Below are positions 12,571 to 40,338 of a DNA stretch of 40,338 bases, one piece after another. A model generated the notes under the pieces. That model saw only the letters and a program-made list of their open reading frames with translations, ran no database searches and was not told the origin of the DNA. Positions within the stretch are counted from its first letter, which is position 1; each line of letters begins with the position of its first letter. The translations under genes were made by a program, and so were the position numbers. This stretch comes from Actinopolymorpha alba DSM 45243 (lineage in GTDB: Bacteria; Actinomycetota; Actinomycetes; Propionibacteriales; Actinopolymorphaceae): positions 44,664 to 85,001 of the forward strand of contig NZ_KB892761.1 of the NCBI RefSeq assembly GCF_000373925.1, given 5' to 3'.

Positions 12571-13496
12571 CCCGCCTCCTTGGTGAACAGGTCAGGTGGA
12601 CCGAAGTTGCCCGACTTCAAGAGCAGACTTGTGCCGGATTCGACGTTCCGAATCCACGGGACTCCGGGAGCCTCCTCCTCCTCGATCGTGCAGATCCGCA
12701 CGTCGAGGTGGTCGATGACGGCACCTGAGGTTTCGCCGCCGGCCACGATCAGGCGACGAATGCCGCGTTCCGCCAGCCCACTGGCCAACTGGCCGGCGAC
12801 ACGCTCGTACACGTCAGGGTCGGAACCACGCTCTGCGGGCCGCTGCGAAGAGAAGAACAGTGCCGGCCCATTCGGGAGATCGTCGAACCATCCGAGAGCG
12901 TCCGCCACAACGGTGTGCTCGCTCGCACAGATCCGGTAGGAAGCTCCTCCGGCTGCCGCGTAGTGGTCTATCTGCTCGAGTGTTCGTTGCGAGCAGCTGC
13001 CGGCGGTGATCGCTGTTCTTATCGTTGATCGCGGTGGAGCAGTCTCGCCTTGGGCTACCACTTCGTGGGCGATGTGGGAGACCGTGTGAGGAGTCTGCGC
13101 ACGGAGGAGGCGAAGGACGGACGAGTCAGTCATCGGGGTCAGCGGATGATCAACCATATGAGTCTCGGCCAGTGGCGTGTCCCCGACGAACAGATGCCCT
13201 TGATAGACGGTTCGACGGTGTCGAGGTGCGCTGGGGGTGGTGACGACGAGCGTCGTATCAAGGGCGTCGGCGAGAGCGTCGGTGATGGGACCGATGTTGC
13301 CCACAGGCGTCGAGTCGAACGTCGAACAGTACTTGAAGTAGAAGCGGGAGACCTCGCACTCAGGCAGGGATTCCAGTGCCCGCAGCGAGAGTGCGACGGC
13401 GTCATCGACGTTTGCTGTTCGCGTTTTGAGGCCGACCACGATGGCAGCGGCGACGTCGGTCGCCCCGGTCACGTCGTCGGCGATGACCCCGATCAT
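12561..13496 (-). CDS. Four-carbon acid sugar kinase family (OtnK-like), internally shortened
   Basis: The protein begins MIGVIADDVTGATDVAAAIV, the DUF1537 nucleotide-binding start, and contains FKYCSTFDSTPVGNIGP, a signature of 3-oxo-tetronate kinases. The C-terminal part, RLIVAGGETSGAVIDHL, then PGVPWIRN and LLLKSGNFGPPDLFTK, is also normal. At 311 residues it is about 110 shorter than usual OtnK proteins. The missing part lies between VVAQGETAP and ITAGSCSQRT, where the linker normally reaches the LVTGGSGLA-like block. The seventh-base motif TGATCGC is repeated near the join (13007 and 13026). Start and stop overlap the neighbours (ATGA with the racemase-like gene). The enzyme may be inactive or altered. 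Confidence 0.75.
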   Translation of the reverse strand: MIGVIADDVTGATDVAAAIVVGLKTRTANVDDAVALSLRALESLPECEVSRFYFKYCSTFDSTPVGNIGPITDALADALDTTLVVTTPSAPRHRRTVYQGHLFVGDTPLAETHMVDHPLTPMTDSSVLRLLRAQTPHTVSHIAHEVVAQGETAPPRSTIRTAITAGSCSQRTLEQIDHYAAAGGASYRICASEHTVVADALGWFDDLPNGPALFFSSQRPAERGSDPDVYERVAGQLASGLAERGIRRLIVAGGETSGAVIDHLDVRICTIEEEEAPGVPWIRNVESGTSLLLKSGNFGPPDLFTKEAGWT

Positions 13497-34583: not shown

Positions 34584-35306
34584 GTGACCGGACCGATGTC
34601 TCTGAGATGGCCCAACTGTCTCAACGTCCGCGACCTCGGAGGTCTATCCACGAGTGACGGTTGCCGGATCAGGGCTGGGGCACTGATCCGTTCCGACAAC
34701 CTCACCCGGTTGACTGAGGCCGGCGTTCAAGCGATGCGAGATGCTTCCGTGAGCCGCATCATCGACGTACGGACGCCACCGGAGTGCGAAGGTGATCGGT
34801 CACCGTTCGCGGCCGATCCCGTCTATCGCAACATGCCGCTCTACAACGCCGACGATCGCTACGACCCGACCCAGAGCATCGACCAGCAGTATGTGGCGAT
34901 GCTCGACCTCCACCCCGAGCTGTTCGCCGCCGCAGTCGGGGCGATCGCGGATGCGCCGATCGGCGGAGTCGTCGTCCATTGCCATGCCGGAAAGGACCGT
35001 GCCGGGAACGTGGTCGCACTGGCCTTACGCCTGGCAGGAGTTCCAGCGGATTCTGTCGCGGCCGACTACGCCGTCCTGGACGACCGCATGCGCGACCACT
35101 TCGACGCACAGCTCGTCCTCATCAACGATCCCACCGAGCGGAGCCAACTGGCTGAGTCCTTCACCGCCCGACCGGAGACGATGCTCGTAGCACTCAGGCA
35201 TCTCGACGACAGGTACGGCGGGGTTGAGCCGTACCTTCGCCACGGAGGTCTAAATGACAACCAGGTCAACGCGCTAAGAGCGCGACTCATCGAGCGACGG
35301 ACCTGA
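34584..35306 (+). CDS. Tyrosine/dual-specificity phosphatase-like protein (Y_phosphatase3)
   Basis: The 240-residue protein begins LRWPNCLNVRDLGGLSTSDG, the N-terminal NxRDLGG signature of this family, and has RIIDVRTPPECEGDRSPF. The active-site loop is VVVHCHAGKDRAGNVVALAL, with Cys and Arg of the CxxxxxR signature (CHAGKDR). Relatives act on phosphotyrosine or phosphoinositides, and some are secreted; this one has no signal peptide. The start is GTG 34584 or ATG 34596; neither has a clear ribosome binding site at ideal spacing. It stands alone between gaps. Confidence 0.85.
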   Translation: MTGPMSLRWPNCLNVRDLGGLSTSDGCRIRAGALIRSDNLTRLTEAGVQAMRDASVSRIIDVRTPPECEGDRSPFAADPVYRNMPLYNADDRYDPTQSIDQQYVAMLDLHPELFAAAVGAIADAPIGGVVVHCHAGKDRAGNVVALALRLAGVPADSVAADYAVLDDRMRDHFDAQLVLINDPTERSQLAESFTARPETMLVALRHLDDRYGGVEPYLRHGGLNDNQVNALRARLIERRT

Positions 35307-35624: not shown

Positions 35625-37199
35625 TCAGTGAGGGCTTCTGGGGCCGGAGGGCAGGGGCACCTGCCATTCGATGATGTAGCGGCCGGGTTGGTTTGGGCGG
35701 CGGTGGCAGGTCCCGCCGAGGCGTTCGGCGCTGGCTTGCAGGTTTACAAGAGGGCTCGACCTTTCCTTGGTTGGGGTGCCGTTGTGGGACACCGCAAGTG
35801 TGAGCTTTTCGGTGTTGACCTGCACGAGCACTTCGACCTCGGTCGGGGAGTACTCGGCGGCGTTGGTGAGCGCCTCTCCGACGGCGGGAACGAGTTCGCG
35901 CTGCACCTCGGCACAGACGTCGCTGTCGATCTGGCCGAGTACGACCAGTCGCGGGGTGAATCCGAGTTGGTCCCTGGCGGAGTCGACTTCGTGGACCAGC
36001 TTGTCAGAGACCGTTGCCTGGTCGGGTTGGGCTGCGAGTGGCTGGTCGGCTTCGCCAGACGGAATCTCGTAGATCCTGGATCGGAGCTGCTGGGTGGATT
36101 CGTTCAAATCCTCGATGGCTTGGTGCACCCGGTGTCGCACCTGAAGCTCGGTGCTGAGGGCTTCGACGCCGTGCAGGTGTGTTCCCGCGGCGAGCAGGCG
36201 TTGGAGCACGGACCCGTACAGGTCTTGGGCGAGCTTGTCACGGTCTTTCAGGACGAGCAGGCGGTCGCGGTCTTGTAGAGCCTTCACCCGCTGTAGGACG
36301 AGCCCGACCTGACCGGCGAGGGTTTCCAACAGTCCCATCTCGCGTCCGGTGGAGGCGTGCGGTGAGTCCCGCAGCCATCCGGCGCAGAGCACCCCCGCGA
36401 CCTCGCCCGCCGACAGTGGCATGTAGATGGCCGGACCGAGGGCAGACTGCGCGCCTGCCAACTGTGCCAGCGGCTTATAGCCAGGTTCGTGGATGAGATC
36501 GTTCGTGATCATAGGGCGACCGGACTTGAGGACGTCGCCCATGAGACCCTGCCGCGCGATGCGGATAACGGGGATGTCCTGCATATCGGTACTGCTCGCC
36601 ACCACGAACATGTGACTGTCAGGCTCGGCAGGATCGGCAAGTGTGACCGCGGCAAACGCCGCGCCAGATATCTCACGCACCCGGTGGGTCACCAGACGCA
36701 TCGCCTTGTGAAGGTCGACCTCGCTCATCAGCAGACGCGCTATCTGTGCGCTGGCTTGGAGTTGTTGTTCTGCTCGGCGCCGCTTGGTGATGTCGCGCAG
36801 CGCCGCCACGTGGATGGGCTGCTGTTCCAGGGTGGTGGCGGTGGCGCGCATTTCCACGATCCGTTCGCTGCCGTCGGGCAGTCTGAGGCTGATTTCGGCT
36901 ACCGGGTCGGCGAGGGGGAACCCGAACTCGGTGCCGACAAGTTCGCCCGCGCTGCGGGCGAAAAGCCGCTCGGCGGCAGGGTTACACACGCAGATGATGC
37001 CGCGTTCGTCGACGGCGATGATGCCGTCGGCCATCGCCGACATCAGCACCCGGCTTGCATCGGGAGCCGGTTCCGGACTCGACGGTGTGTTGCCGCGGCG
37101 GCGGGGATCGGGCGGCGGTCGGCTCTGGGCAGGGCTCTCGCCGTGCCTCGTATCCCTCTCGCGGGGTTCGTTCTCGTGGTCTTCGGGCTGGTGTTGCAT
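35625..37199 (-). CDS. PAS-GAF sensor kinase-like protein lacking the phosphoacceptor histidine
   Basis: The 524-residue protein has a disordered N-terminus, a PAS domain (about 48-140: MADGIIAVDERGIICVCNPA), a GAF domain (about 150-305) and a HisKA_3-like helix pair (about 315-380). A degenerate HATPase region follows (about 430-515). The overall layout is that of DevS/DosT-type kinases. In the H-box, where RDLHD is expected, the sequence is KLAQDLYGSVLQRL: Tyr328 replaces the His. The ATPase N-box keeps Asn (GEALTNAAEY) but the G1 box DxGxG is SHNGTP. It is therefore probably a pseudokinase or sensor. It starts 9 bp after the KaiC stop and is third in the kaiB-kaiC operon. Confidence 0.82.
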   Translation of the reverse strand: MQHQPEDHENEPRERDTRHGESPAQSRPPPDPRRRGNTPSSPEPAPDASRVLMSAMADGIIAVDERGIICVCNPAAERLFARSAGELVGTEFGFPLADPVAEISLRLPDGSERIVEMRATATTLEQQPIHVAALRDITKRRRAEQQLQASAQIARLLMSEVDLHKAMRLVTHRVREISGAAFAAVTLADPAEPDSHMFVVASSTDMQDIPVIRIARQGLMGDVLKSGRPMITNDLIHEPGYKPLAQLAGAQSALGPAIYMPLSAGEVAGVLCAGWLRDSPHASTGREMGLLETLAGQVGLVLQRVKALQDRDRLLVLKDRDKLAQDLYGSVLQRLLAAGTHLHGVEALSTELQVRHRVHQAIEDLNESTQQLRSRIYEIPSGEADQPLAAQPDQATVSDKLVHEVDSARDQLGFTPRLVVLGQIDSDVCAEVQRELVPAVGEALTNAAEYSPTEVEVLVQVNTEKLTLAVSHNGTPTKERSSPLVNLQASAERLGGTCHRRPNQPGRYIIEWQVPLPSGPRSPH

Positions 37200-37208
37200 G
37201 GTGCCGCG

Positions 37209-38705
37209 TCAGGTTTCGGGGCGGGGCTGGAGCGGCCATTCGGGGTTTTCGGGTAGCTGTGGTTCTCTGATTTGGCCGCCGCGGAGGGGGGTGAGGATGT
37301 GCAGGCCAGTGTTGTCGATATGGATTCGCCGGATGCGGGGGTCGTGTCCAGAGCCGCGGGATTGGATGACAGCGGCAGACCGCTGGATCTCTAGTTCGGC
37401 GGTTTCGAAGTAGCGGTACAAGATGCTGACGTCGATGAAGCTGGCGATCTCCAGCACGATCGGTGGGGTGATCCGGCTAACCCGGCTGGACGGTGCCGCC
37501 GTCAGCAGCGTGGTGATCTCGTTCTGCCGGAGCAGCGATCCCAGTGCGATGACGAAATCGAGTAGCACCCGCGGAGTGGCGATCCGCTCCAGCGCCGTCA
37601 GCGAGTCGATGACCAGCCGGTGCGGCGCGAACTCGGCCAGGATGGCCCACAGCCGCAGGAAGTGATCCTCCAGTGCGGCCACCTCCGGATAATCGGTGAT
37701 TACCCGCAGTAGGCCGGAGCCTTCCATCGCCGGTAGGTCCATCCCCCAGCCAGCAGCGTTGCGGACCAGTTGGTCATGGGTTTCGTCGAAGGTGAAGAGC
37801 AGGCAGCGCTCCCCGGCGGCGACCCCGGCCATAGCGAAGTGCAGGGAGGTCAGCGTCTTGCCGGTGCCGGTCGGCCCGGTGATCAAGGTGATCGCGTCTT
37901 TGTAGACACCGCCTTCGAGCATCTCATCCAGGCCGGCGACGCCGGTGGACACCCGGACCCGGGAAGCCGAAGCGCGGGGGGTGAGAAACGCCAACGGGAG
38001 GATCACGATGCCGCGGTCGGGGTCGATCGTGAAAAGCCACTCCCCGGTTCGATGCGCCAGACCGCGGCACTTAGCGACCTCGATCGTGCGCCGCCGCCGA
38101 TCCTCATGCAGGGCGTTCCGCAAGATGATCAGGCCGTCGACCACAAACTCCTCAACACCGAACCGCGACACCCCGTCGTAATCGGTGACCCGCTCCGCCG
38201 TCACCACCGAGGTCACGCCAAGCGCCTCCAGCCCGGCCACGATCCGAAACATCTCATGGCGGACGATGCCGACCGCGTCGTACCGGGTGAAGATCGCGCC
38301 GAGGGAGTCCACCGACACCCGGCTGGCGCCAACCCGGCGTACGGCGTGACCGATCCGAGCGACCAAGCCGCCGAGGTCATACTCACCGATGGTTGGTTCT
38401 TCCTCGGCAATGTCGGCAGAGGCGTCGACAAACGCCCACTTCCCTTGGGCCTCCCAGGTCTTGATCGGAACACCCAACGAAGCCGCGTTCCGGCGGATGT
38501 CGTCGGGGGTCTCCTCAAACGTTACGAACACGCCGGGTTGGTCGAAACCGGTGATCCCGCGGGCAAGGAACTCCACCGCGAACAGTGTCTTCCCACTGCC
38601 GGTCGTCCCAGTCACCAGACAACACCGCCCGGCTGGAAGGCCGCCTAACGCCACATCGTCGAACCCACTGATGCCGGTCCGTACCTGCTCAATCGCCGCC
38701 GCCAT
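37209..38705 (-). CDS. kaiC: KaiC-family clock-type ATPase (double RecA domain)
   Basis: The 498-residue protein has two KaiC domains. CI: Walker A GTTGSGKT (33-40), catalytic Glu pair in VTFEETPDDI (64-65), and VSVDSLGAIFTRYDA, matching cyanobacterial KaiC closely. CII: Walker A GPTGTGKT (277-284), FTFDETHDQL (Asp307-Glu308) and LVIDSLTALERIA. At the phosphorylation site, aligned on the following ID-ILY-RYFE, KaiC Ser431-Thr432 correspond to Ala421-Ser422. The C-terminal A-loop/KaiA-binding tail is not recognisable. ATG 38705 lies inside the kaiB end (17-bp overlap), with GGGGGAGG just upstream. KaiC normally switches between phosphorylated states to time output; here the partners are a KaiB and a kinase-like protein. 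Confidence 0.88.
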   Translation of the reverse strand: MAAAIEQVRTGISGFDDVALGGLPAGRCCLVTGTTGSGKTLFAVEFLARGITGFDQPGVFVTFEETPDDIRRNAASLGVPIKTWEAQGKWAFVDASADIAEEEPTIGEYDLGGLVARIGHAVRRVGASRVSVDSLGAIFTRYDAVGIVRHEMFRIVAGLEALGVTSVVTAERVTDYDGVSRFGVEEFVVDGLIILRNALHEDRRRRTIEVAKCRGLAHRTGEWLFTIDPDRGIVILPLAFLTPRASASRVRVSTGVAGLDEMLEGGVYKDAITLITGPTGTGKTLTSLHFAMAGVAAGERCLLFTFDETHDQLVRNAAGWGMDLPAMEGSGLLRVITDYPEVAALEDHFLRLWAILAEFAPHRLVIDSLTALERIATPRVLLDFVIALGSLLRQNEITTLLTAAPSSRVSRITPPIVLEIASFIDVSILYRYFETAELEIQRSAAVIQSRGSGHDPRIRRIHIDNTGLHILTPLRGGQIREPQLPENPEWPLQPRPET

Positions 38706-39015
38706 CGCCTCCCCCTCTCTCGCTGCTTGCCGGCACCGCCAGGGTGTCGGGAAGCCCCAAGGCGACGGCAGCGCGATGCTGATCCGACAGGTCACCCACG
38801 ACGCGCCGCCTCGGGGATGGCGCGAACCGGATCACCGTCGGGGTCGCCAGAATCCGTTCCTGATCAAACAGATCCGCCTGCTCAGCCGCGTCGACTACCT
38901 CCACCCGAAAGTCGCTCCCCAGGCGAGACTCACAAAGCCGCCGTAGGTTCGCTTCCGCCAGCACCGACCGCTCGGTCTGACCGGTGACGTACAACCTGAA
39001 AACGTACGTAGTCAC
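38689..39015 (-). CDS. kaiB: KaiB-family protein
   Basis: The 108-residue protein starts TTYVFRLYVTGQTERSVLAE and contains RILATPTVIRFAPSPRRRVV and GDLSDQHRAAVALG. The ILATPT (55-60) and GDLSD (74-78) blocks are the KaiB hallmarks; KaiB is a thioredoxin-like, fold-switching protein that binds KaiC. A Gly/Asp-rich tail of about ten residues overlaps the kaiC start. GTG 39015 is the chosen start because family similarity begins there. It is the first gene of the kaiB-kaiC-kinase operon. No kaiA is in the window, as in most non-cyanobacterial kai loci. Confidence 0.88.
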   Translation of the reverse strand: MTTYVFRLYVTGQTERSVLAEANLRRLCESRLGSDFRVEVVDAAEQADLFDQERILATPTVIRFAPSPRRRVVGDLSDQHRAAVALGLPDTLAVPASSERGGGDGGGD

Positions 39016-39872: not shown

Positions 39873-40113
39873 ATGATCTCACTTCGCACCGCTACGAGGG
39901 ATGACATCCCCGTCCTCGCTGATGTGCTGGCGAAGGTCGAAGCACAAGTCGATGCGTCGATCGATGTCGAGGAACGTCGGAAGGCCATCGCCGAGGGAAT
40001 CAACGGGTACTTCGGCGCTGACGAGCCGGAGAGCATCCTCTCGATCATCGAGTTCGACGGCGCCCCGGCCGGCAGGTTCAGGGTCGTCCGCTTCCCGGAC
40101 CGGATCTTCCTAG
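39873..40113 (+). pseudogene. GNAT acetyltransferase truncated by an insertion element
   Basis: From ATG 39873 the protein reads MISLRTATRDDIPVLADVLA, then RKAIAEGINGYFG and GAPAGRFRVVRFPDRIFL, the first half of a GNAT domain. After the CTAG at 40110-40113 the similarity stops; only four or five more codons follow before a TAG. The acetyl-CoA binding half is missing, so it is inactive. Confidence 0.6.
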
Positions 40114-40338
40114 TACTACAGCCGTAGATCGTGATCTTGCCTGATCGGCCTTGCTGGGTAGGGGCGTTGGGTGTCGGCGGGTCGGTGCGTGACGACGGGC
40201 GGCCACCGCTGCATTGTCTGTGTTTGTGAAGACAACAGATGAAGATGCCGCGATGGCCGCTGCGCTCAGCATAGAGGTCGGTCGCTGGGAGTCCGAACTG
40301 GGCGAGCTGATGTGCAGAGTTGGTCGCTTGTTCGCCCG
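40114..40338 (+). mobile_element. Left end of an IS701-family insertion sequence (partial)
   Basis: The DNA changes abruptly right after CTAG (40110-40113), which fits the 4-bp YTAR target reported for the IS701 family. The assumed left end starts TACTACAGCCGTAGATC. A transposase start follows about 110 bp in. The right end lies outside the window, so the terminal repeat and target duplication cannot be confirmed. Confidence 0.5.
40226..40338 (+). CDS. IS701-family transposase, N-terminal part only
   Basis: From GTG 40226 the frame gives DAAMAAALSIEVGRWESELG and ELMCRVGRLFAR and runs off the window. The WESELGELxxRVGxLFAR block is the usual N-terminus of actinobacterial IS701-type DDE transposases. 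A second possible start is ATG 40252. The catalytic residues lie beyond the edge. Confidence 0.6.
   Translation, partial: MKTTDEDAAMAAALSIEVGRWESELGELMCRVGRLFA

Follow-up and report, generated by a model that had tools for sequence, protein, structure and literature searches.

The closest described counterparts of the locus reported here are the KaiABC system of Synechococcus elongatus and the KaiBC systems of purple bacteria. In Synechococcus KaiC, E318 is the catalytic glutamate, whose variants E318A and E318D are both arrhythmic, the phosphates of ATP are steadied by K457 of the neighboring subunit, and the phosphosite variants TaT (S431A) and TSa (T432A) are each arrhythmic (PMC2777353). 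KaiA is reported solely from cyanobacteria (PMC5520375). The genes kaiC, kaiB and one for a sensor kinase lie together in Rhodopseudomonas palustris (PMC4794148), and a 2019 review names Proteobacteria, Thermotogae and Chloroflexi as phyla with kaiC homologs (PMC6627678). As for actinobacteria, two freshwater members are without Kai homologs (PMC8591293), and no study of an actinobacterial kaiBC was recognised in the open-licence literature searched, mostly from titles and abstract openings, the 'kaic' matches in Saccharopolyspora literature being an author's name. The present locus, consisting of kaiB, kaiC and a third gene, is located in a stretch of 40,338 nucleotides of the soil actinomycete Actinopolymorpha alba DSM 45243 (contig NZ_KB892761.1, positions 44,664 to 85,001), the whole of which is called the window. 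Its KaiC belongs to a clade of actinomycete KaiCs in which the catalytic glutamate of CII, the second of the two KaiC domains, is replaced throughout, and we lean, on the basis of sequence comparison, towards the hypothesis that KaiB and KaiC would act here as a nucleotide switch without a phosphorylation oscillator, read by a pseudokinase, in a lineage that may have left the phosphorylation clock. The three genes are:

38689..39015, minus strand: kaiB, 108 amino acids, GTG start; Pfam KaiB 74.7 bits (cut-off 27)
37209..38705, minus strand: kaiC, 498 amino acids, two KaiC domains (CI and CII); identified by profile matches and trees
35625..37199, minus strand: third gene, predicted pseudo-histidine kinase, 524 amino acids; PAS-GAF and a degenerate HisKA_3/HATPase module

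On the minus strand the order is kaiB, kaiC, third gene, with an overlap of 17 bases between the first two and a gap of 9 bases before the third, as calculated from the coordinates, and the open reading frame (ORF) is uninterrupted in all three. The original prediction, made from the letters of the window, of overlapping or abutting genes for an actinomycete KaiB-KaiC pair, with a double-domain KaiC holding both Walker A motifs and the glutamate pair of CI, agrees with these data. In fact, KaiB carries the ATPT and GDLSD motifs and has a KaiB as its best match among solved chains (66 bits), and KaiC comprises two PF06745 stretches (355 bits in total in Pfam), scores 526 bits with NCBIfam NF006799 (cut-off 408), is closest among solved chains to the KaiC 8zn5 (480 bits), and keeps both Walker A motifs (GTTGSGKT and GPTGTGKT) and the CI pair (TFEET). 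The circadian models of NCBIfam were missed, with 62.6 and 62.1 bits for two KaiB equivalog models (cut-offs 110 and 145.3) and 445 for TIGR02655 circ_KaiC (cut-off 546). That the protein is RadA or another RecA-like ATPase was ruled out by the profile scores and the structure-chain matches, the RadA (sms) model giving 34.5 against a cut-off of 403; the rows of the KaiC tree are KaiCs only, RadA not being among them. The genome holds one KaiB match and five PF06745 matches, of which the best two correspond to CI and CII of this KaiC and the remaining three reach at most 44 bits. A scan for sigma-70 promoters found none, and a scan for terminators found two, fewer than the shuffled mean.

With S. 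elongatus KaiABC the locus shares its two protein families, KaiB and double-domain KaiC, as well as the two Walker A motifs and the catalytic residues of CI. Likewise, kaiC, kaiB and a gene of sensor-kinase type lie together both here and in the KaiBC-PAS/histidine kinase loci of R. palustris and Rhodobacter (Cereibacter) sphaeroides, and since purple bacteria are known to combine kaiBC with a PAS kinase (PMC4794148) the type of operon is not new. However, the order is kaiB-kaiC-third gene here, against kaiC-kaiB-HWE kinase in an annotated record, the third gene of those loci is described as encoding a histidine kinase, and the phosphosites of their KaiCs are kept, as TSS in R. palustris (PMC4794148) and as S413/S414 in R. 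sphaeroides (PMC10076222), unlike those of the window KaiC. Compared with S. elongatus, the latter shows E318D, K457Q, S431A and T432S, changes which the original prediction did not contain and which were found in alignments and read from the codons:

37785..37787, minus strand: kaiC codon 307, Asp at the position of the CII catalytic glutamate E318
37440..37445, minus strand: kaiC codons 421-422, Ala-Ser at the phosphosites S431-T432
37362..37364, minus strand: kaiC codon 448, Gln at the position of K457, the CII inter-subunit lysine

The CII pair is thus Asp-Glu instead of Glu-Glu, and both sequence features of a phosphorylating KaiC of the cyanobacterial type, the catalytic E318 and an ST or SS pair at S431/T432, are absent. 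The window KaiC falls into a single clade of 29 actinomycete KaiCs, with support by the Shimodaira-Hasegawa-like approximate likelihood-ratio test (SH-aLRT) of 98 for the whole protein, 100 for CI alone and 99 for CII alone; it holds the window, eight KaiCs of the same genus, one of the same family, two of the same class and 17 from further actinomycetes, and the comparison set outside it numbers 66. The tree has 63 rows (62 of the 95 aligned KaiCs and one cyanobacterial KaiC), pre-grouped by origin and similarity, and was built, like the other KaiC trees, by a quick method with SH-aLRT as the only support. Loci L082-L141 (60) make up the lower portion of the best 80 among at least 572 matches confirmed in a scan that started from actinomycete KaiCs, and because they were taken from the best matches to such seeds distant KaiCs lie outside the sample; L065, L072 and L078, which are copies of L061, L047 and L045, and L057, a short contig in which no KaiC was found, were dropped before counting.

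Within the clade, the E318 position is Asp in 29 of 29 members and Glu in all 66 others, and the K457 position is Gln in 28 and Arg in one, against Lys in all 66. Position 431 holds Ala in 23 members, Thr in two, Asp in two and Ser in two (Ser in 65 and Ala in one of the others), and position 432 holds Ser in 20, Gly in six and Ala, Asn and Arg in one each (Thr in 55 and Ser in 11 of the others), so that eight members have a hydroxyl at neither site and two keep Ser-Ser. In CI, E78, K224 and R226 are kept in 29 of 29 and E77 in 25, with Asp in the other four. A KaiC outside the clade, that of L060, also has Ala at 431, but E318 and K457 are retained. Among the sampled KaiCs, a faster-evolving CII half is confined to the 29-member clade: mean path lengths are 0.835 for CI and 1.32 for CII in the clade and 0.942 and 0.832 in the others (leaving out L052 and the four long-branch rows L053, L056, L058 and L060), and the CII p-distance exceeds that of CI in 340 of 406 clade pairs against 39 of 1891 pairs elsewhere (leaving out only those four rows), pairs that are not independent of one another. 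The four, all from the same class, represent a second type of locus with kaiC first, a long KaiC (564-598 amino acids) and a long branch; in L056 and L060 kaiC is followed by two copies of kaiB. A pattern for the KaiA-binding A-loop was matched in none of the 29 and in 49 of the 66, but it is unreliable, several of the 17 'missing' others showing GIL-x-G by eye and L068, L069, L079 and L080 keeping remnants, and no conclusion was drawn from it.

Because the window KaiC keeps Ser at 432, a phosphorylating hourglass of the Rhodobacter type has to be considered, in which KaiC would autophosphorylate at a single Ser432-like residue, CII being merely tuned, and would run as a daily hourglass. We regard this as unlikely but deserving of serious attention, since Walker A is intact in both domains, 20 of the 29 members have Ser432 and 21 have at least one hydroxyl at the two sites, the change from Glu to Asp retains a carboxylate, and R. 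sphaeroides has a KaiA-free KaiBC hourglass (PMC10076222). It fits poorly with the arrhythmia of E318D in Synechococcus (PMC2777353), with the eight members devoid of a hydroxyl, with the disappearance of K457 from the entire clade, with the relaxed constraint on CII, and with the length of the window KaiC (498 amino acids), which is without the long C-terminal extension, a coiled-coil tail, described for the R. sphaeroides protein (PMC10076222), to which it is about 36% identical. Several observations nevertheless weigh against a nucleotide switch free of phosphorylation. The Synechococcus TaT protein bears phosphate on T432, and a loss of phosphoryl transfer is stated, in the excerpt available, for E318A only, though E318D is arrhythmic (PMC2777353); Ser at 432 of the window KaiC could still be phosphorylated, and the 21 clade members with at least one hydroxyl count on the same side; and the acceleration of CII may reflect a new CII function instead of a loss.

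The third gene encodes the following domains:

36759..37064, minus strand: PAS of the kaiBC-linked kind; Pfam PAS, and a profile made from 16 further PAS domains linked to actinomycete kaiBC gives 145 bits
36291..36719, minus strand: GAF; Pfam GAF_2 62 bits, aligning with the second, more constrained GAF of three relatives
36066..36263, minus strand: DHp-like region, with Tyr328 (36216-36218) in place of the phosphoacceptor His
35652..36017, minus strand: CA-like (HATPase) domain without G1 and G2; predicted fold like that of the DosS CA domain

In Pfam, PAS and GAF lie above their cut-offs and HisKA_3 (20.4 bits, cut-off 24) and HATPase_c (17.8 bits, cut-off 26.4) both lie below, and the original prediction was therefore correct in calling the kinase end of this PAS-GAF protein degenerate. 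The six genomes of the genus hold nine kaiBC loci, and a degenerate-kinase third gene is present at four of them (the window, L046, L048 and L051), in four of the six genomes; none was found at the other five (L044, L045, L047, L049 and L050), and the KaiCs of the four cluster together with an SH-aLRT of 99. The phosphoacceptor position, Tyr in the window, is Cys in the three relatives, and the G1 (DxGxG) and G2 ATP-binding motifs are gone in all four by comparison with DosS, the window protein retaining an Asn at the N-box position. No KaiB-like domain, as in the N-terminus of Synechococcus SasA, appears among the 12 Pfam families that the third gene matches with E values up to 1. Since the phosphoacceptor His and G1/G2 are gone, the proposal that the third gene takes the place of SasA was rejected as far as kinase activity is concerned.

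Its description as DevS-like is weakly supported: the whole sequence has no PDB match at E 0.001, but the C-terminal domain matches the DevS/DosS CA domain weakly in sequence (E 0.003) and also in fold. The AlphaFold model is poor overall, with a mean predicted local distance difference test score (pLDDT) of 54 and a badly modelled DHp, but residues 401-520, with ten-residue pLDDT means of 67-85, match the DosS CA domain with a target TM-score of 0.74-0.76. Mycobacterial DevS/DosS has the architecture GAF-GAF-HisKA_3-HATPase. Unlike it, the window protein lacks the first GAF, has a PAS, carries Tyr for His and has lost G1/G2; the three Actinopolymorpha relatives are GAF-GAF, and in profile searches their GAF1, like their CA domain, matches DevS/DosS structures, whereas GAF2 matches NreA and not DevS. 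In these relatives dN/dS (ratio of nonsynonymous to synonymous change) is 0.14-0.23 for GAF2, 0.19-0.24 for the DHp-like region, 0.46-0.66 for GAF1 and 0.53-0.61 for the CA-like domain, with 0.12-0.23 for KaiC and 0.32-0.58 for the third gene, figures in which dS is noisy and only three relatives enter, a further point against our interpretation. The low values of GAF2 and the DHp-like region, next to a looser CA-like domain, fit a protein retained for sensing and dimerising and not for ATP use.

Outside the Actinopolymorpha family the clade has 19 loci, and 18 of them encode a PAS-HisKA-HATPase protein with His and N box intact (16 by motif reading; L070 and L074, missed by ORF picking, were read separately). 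The gene triple of the original prediction is not a general feature, being present at four of nine loci of the genus and replaced by this intact-kinase arrangement at those 18. At the 19th locus, in Streptomyces abyssalis (L067:8478-9581, plus strand), the PAS is joined to a SpoIIE phosphatase, which might indicate control of an anti-sigma pathway. Pfam over 22 third genes at E 0.01 gave PAS in 19, HATPase_c in 18, HisKA in 16 and SpoIIE in one; L054, one of the 22 and outside the KaiC clade, has no HisKA motif by pattern. With the kaiBC-linked PAS profile, the window and L067 (132 bits) score highly although neither is in its training set, 13 other PAS matches in two actinomycete genomes, the sole background measured, reach at most 41 bits or none, and an ORF directly downstream of kaiC reaches at least 55 bits at 35 of the 66 loci outside the clade (43 of 66 anywhere in the locus), fewer than 900 bases being available downstream of kaiC at four of the 66; by the profile, no linked PAS was found at loci L044-L052. 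A particular PAS is therefore tied to kaiBC in several phyla, with an output module that varies.

A conserved stretch upstream of kaiB, found by comparing flanking ORFs, encodes on the opposite strand a response regulator of the NarL type (the two proteins read have Response_reg and GerE), which, like the CII substitutions, this analysis adds to the original prediction. By tblastn it stands divergently beside kaiB at 14 of the 18 loci that encode the PAS kinase and at none of the 11 other clade loci (Fisher p 5e-5), a linkage that amounts to about two independent contrasts on the tree, for which a sign test is not significant; at L066 the regulator is partial, at a contig end. The loci with kinase and regulator (Microbispora, Streptosporangium, Sphaerisporangium, Streptomyces, Kutzneria, Actinoallomurus) share the KaiC clade and the linked PAS with the window, which has neither an intact kinase nor a regulator. 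GAF-ANTAR proteins adjoin the divergent regulator in Kutzneria (L068:4974-5747, minus strand) and Streptomyces (L071:4958-5689, minus strand). Among the matches listed from the six genomes of the genus, no ortholog of the regulator or of the intact kinase was found: the best-scoring regulator matches show 35-40% identity (one lower-listed partial match 41%) against 62% for the protein beside the kaiBC of genome G345, and the kinase matches at most 35%, save the window PAS with 52%, identities so low that both kinase chemistry and regulator appear missing from the genus. On the other side of the balance, the kinase occurs without the regulator at L073, L076, L077 and L081, 31 of the 66 loci outside the clade have no linked PAS directly downstream of kaiC, and the PAS would be a reader of KaiB or KaiC on the evidence of linkage.

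The PAS and GAF domains of the window protein, together with the DevS-like first GAF of its relatives, could also be taken to suggest a stress or redox adaptor, in which KaiC would provide a platform for assembly while the PAS-GAF protein would sense heme, redox state or a ligand and set KaiC, information thus entering KaiC from the third protein and not leaving by it. The variety of C-terminal modules on the linked PAS (HisKA kinase, SpoIIE phosphatase, degenerate kinase) and the failure to find the regulator in the six genomes of the genus would suit such a role. Nevertheless, we consider it improbable: 14 of 28 relatives carry the PAS as part of an intact kinase and encode a response regulator next to it, which points to output, and the DevS-like match belongs to the relatives' GAF1, which the window protein does not have.

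KaiB was found in all six genomes of the genus and in seven of eight of the family, in 12 of 196 genomes sampled from the order (10 above the cut-off) and, for the class, in 44 of 394 sampled (20 above the cut-off, with many weak matches). A conserved genome position of the window locus was not found within the genus; L046 and L048 have common flanks, and L051 has only the cassette in common with these. The original prediction placed the locus between mobile DNA remnants, which may stand for one side only, that of kaiB, where the upstream region runs for 1.3 kb to the contig end and closes with the following sequence:

40120..40338 (219 bases), no strand assigned: contig-end repeat, one of three identical copies in the genome; insertion sequence-like by eye in translation only

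The flank far from the repeat encodes a tyrosine phosphatase, two APH-family genes and a mycothiol transferase, the remaining scanned ORFs being ordinary or matchless, and no transposase or integrase was found by Pfam in the 20 flanking ORFs scanned, which are part of the window ORFs. The tyrosine phosphatase gene (34584-35306, plus strand; Y_phosphatase3 179 bits) is convergent with the operon. Before the repeat lies a short frame (39873-40127, plus strand) with no Pfam match, which by eye resembles the start of an acetyltransferase cut by the insertion.

In genome G001 (L051), two direct repeats, 139 and 135 bases long (93% and 84%), stand on either side of the kaiBC-third-gene cassette, at L051:8351-8625 and 12597-13076, apparently derived from a duplicated neighboring stretch. 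Genomes G003, G004 and G005 carry the stretch neighboring the G001 cassette, and their KaiB matches lie elsewhere, an arrangement which together with the repeats suggests that the cassette moved at least once. Transfer, as in the transferable module originally proposed, is therefore plausible, mainly from this one relative, with movement suggested for G001 and not established for the window cassette. These features bring up a horizontally gained kaiBC cassette that is losing its function and whose kinase is already dead, as the patchy occurrence in the class, the differing flanks within the genus, the repeat beside kaiB and the missing kinase motifs might suggest. We judge this very improbable, given that kaiB is present in all six genomes of the genus, that all three frames are open, that KaiC and the third gene show the dN/dS values given above, and that the loss of His is common to four genomes in which GAF2 and the DHp-like parts stay constrained.

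KaiB itself offers only a hint. At the positions that correspond by alignment to 88 and 90 in Synechococcus numbering, the window KaiB has Ala and Gly; Gly at 88 occurs in none of the 29 clade members and Gly at 90 in all of them, with Ala88 in 11 and Gly90 in 14 of the 66 others. The substitutions G88A/D90R are said to affect KaiB fold switching; no mention of them was found in the papers searched for it.

The sequences themselves show the operon, the clade, the substitutions, the acceleration of CII and the loss of the kinase motifs, as well as the failure to find an ortholog of the regulator or of the intact kinase; from these comparisons we infer the activities, the KaiB binding, the PAS coupling and the physiological role in the nucleotide-switch hypothesis. 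CI would probably still function as an ATPase ring, its nucleotide state governing the binding of KaiB, and CII would be kept with its autokinase chemistry lost or weakened, so that KaiB and KaiC would form an hourglass or an energy-state (ATP/ADP) switch and not a self-sustained oscillator. In 18 of the 28 clade relatives the state of KaiC would be passed to the PAS histidine kinase, and at 14 of these on to the adjacent NarL-type regulator. In the present organism and its nearest relatives, a DevS/DosS-like pseudokinase with sensor domains would replace the missing two-component output, and is expected to act by binding, as a scaffold or as the partner of another kinase, and not by phosphotransfer. 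For the lineage as a whole we propose tentatively, with slightly more doubt than belief, that it has kept the CI ATPase and KaiB and dropped the phosphorylation clock of CII, with a dedicated PAS whose output can be swapped (kinase and NarL-type regulator, SpoIIE-type phosphatase, pseudokinase), and so represents a Kai system without KaiC phosphorylation. No earlier description of the clade-fixed CII changes, the linked PAS with exchangeable outputs, the adjacent regulator or the pseudokinase was found in the open-licence literature searched, most of it by titles and abstract openings.

The clade constitutes a natural experiment, in which E318D, the change that stops the Synechococcus clock, is fixed in 29 of 29 sampled members, K457 is lost and a phosphosite is mostly lost, and in which, despite these changes in CII, KaiB and KaiC are kept together with a linked sensor protein at 23 of the 29 loci. 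If the proteins of the clade still switch, KaiB-KaiC signalling would need no KaiC phosphorylation. With the parts that drive the known clock altered and the output kinase apparently dead, the system of the window is probably another kind of cellular switch than the cyanobacterial clock. The regulator beside the 14 intact-kinase loci provides a candidate route of output that is present in isolated strains of Streptomyces and Microbispora, and the PAS linked to kaiBC is a candidate reader or sensor for such loci in several phyla. The finding bears on timekeeping by Kai proteins outside cyanobacteria and on its chemistry.

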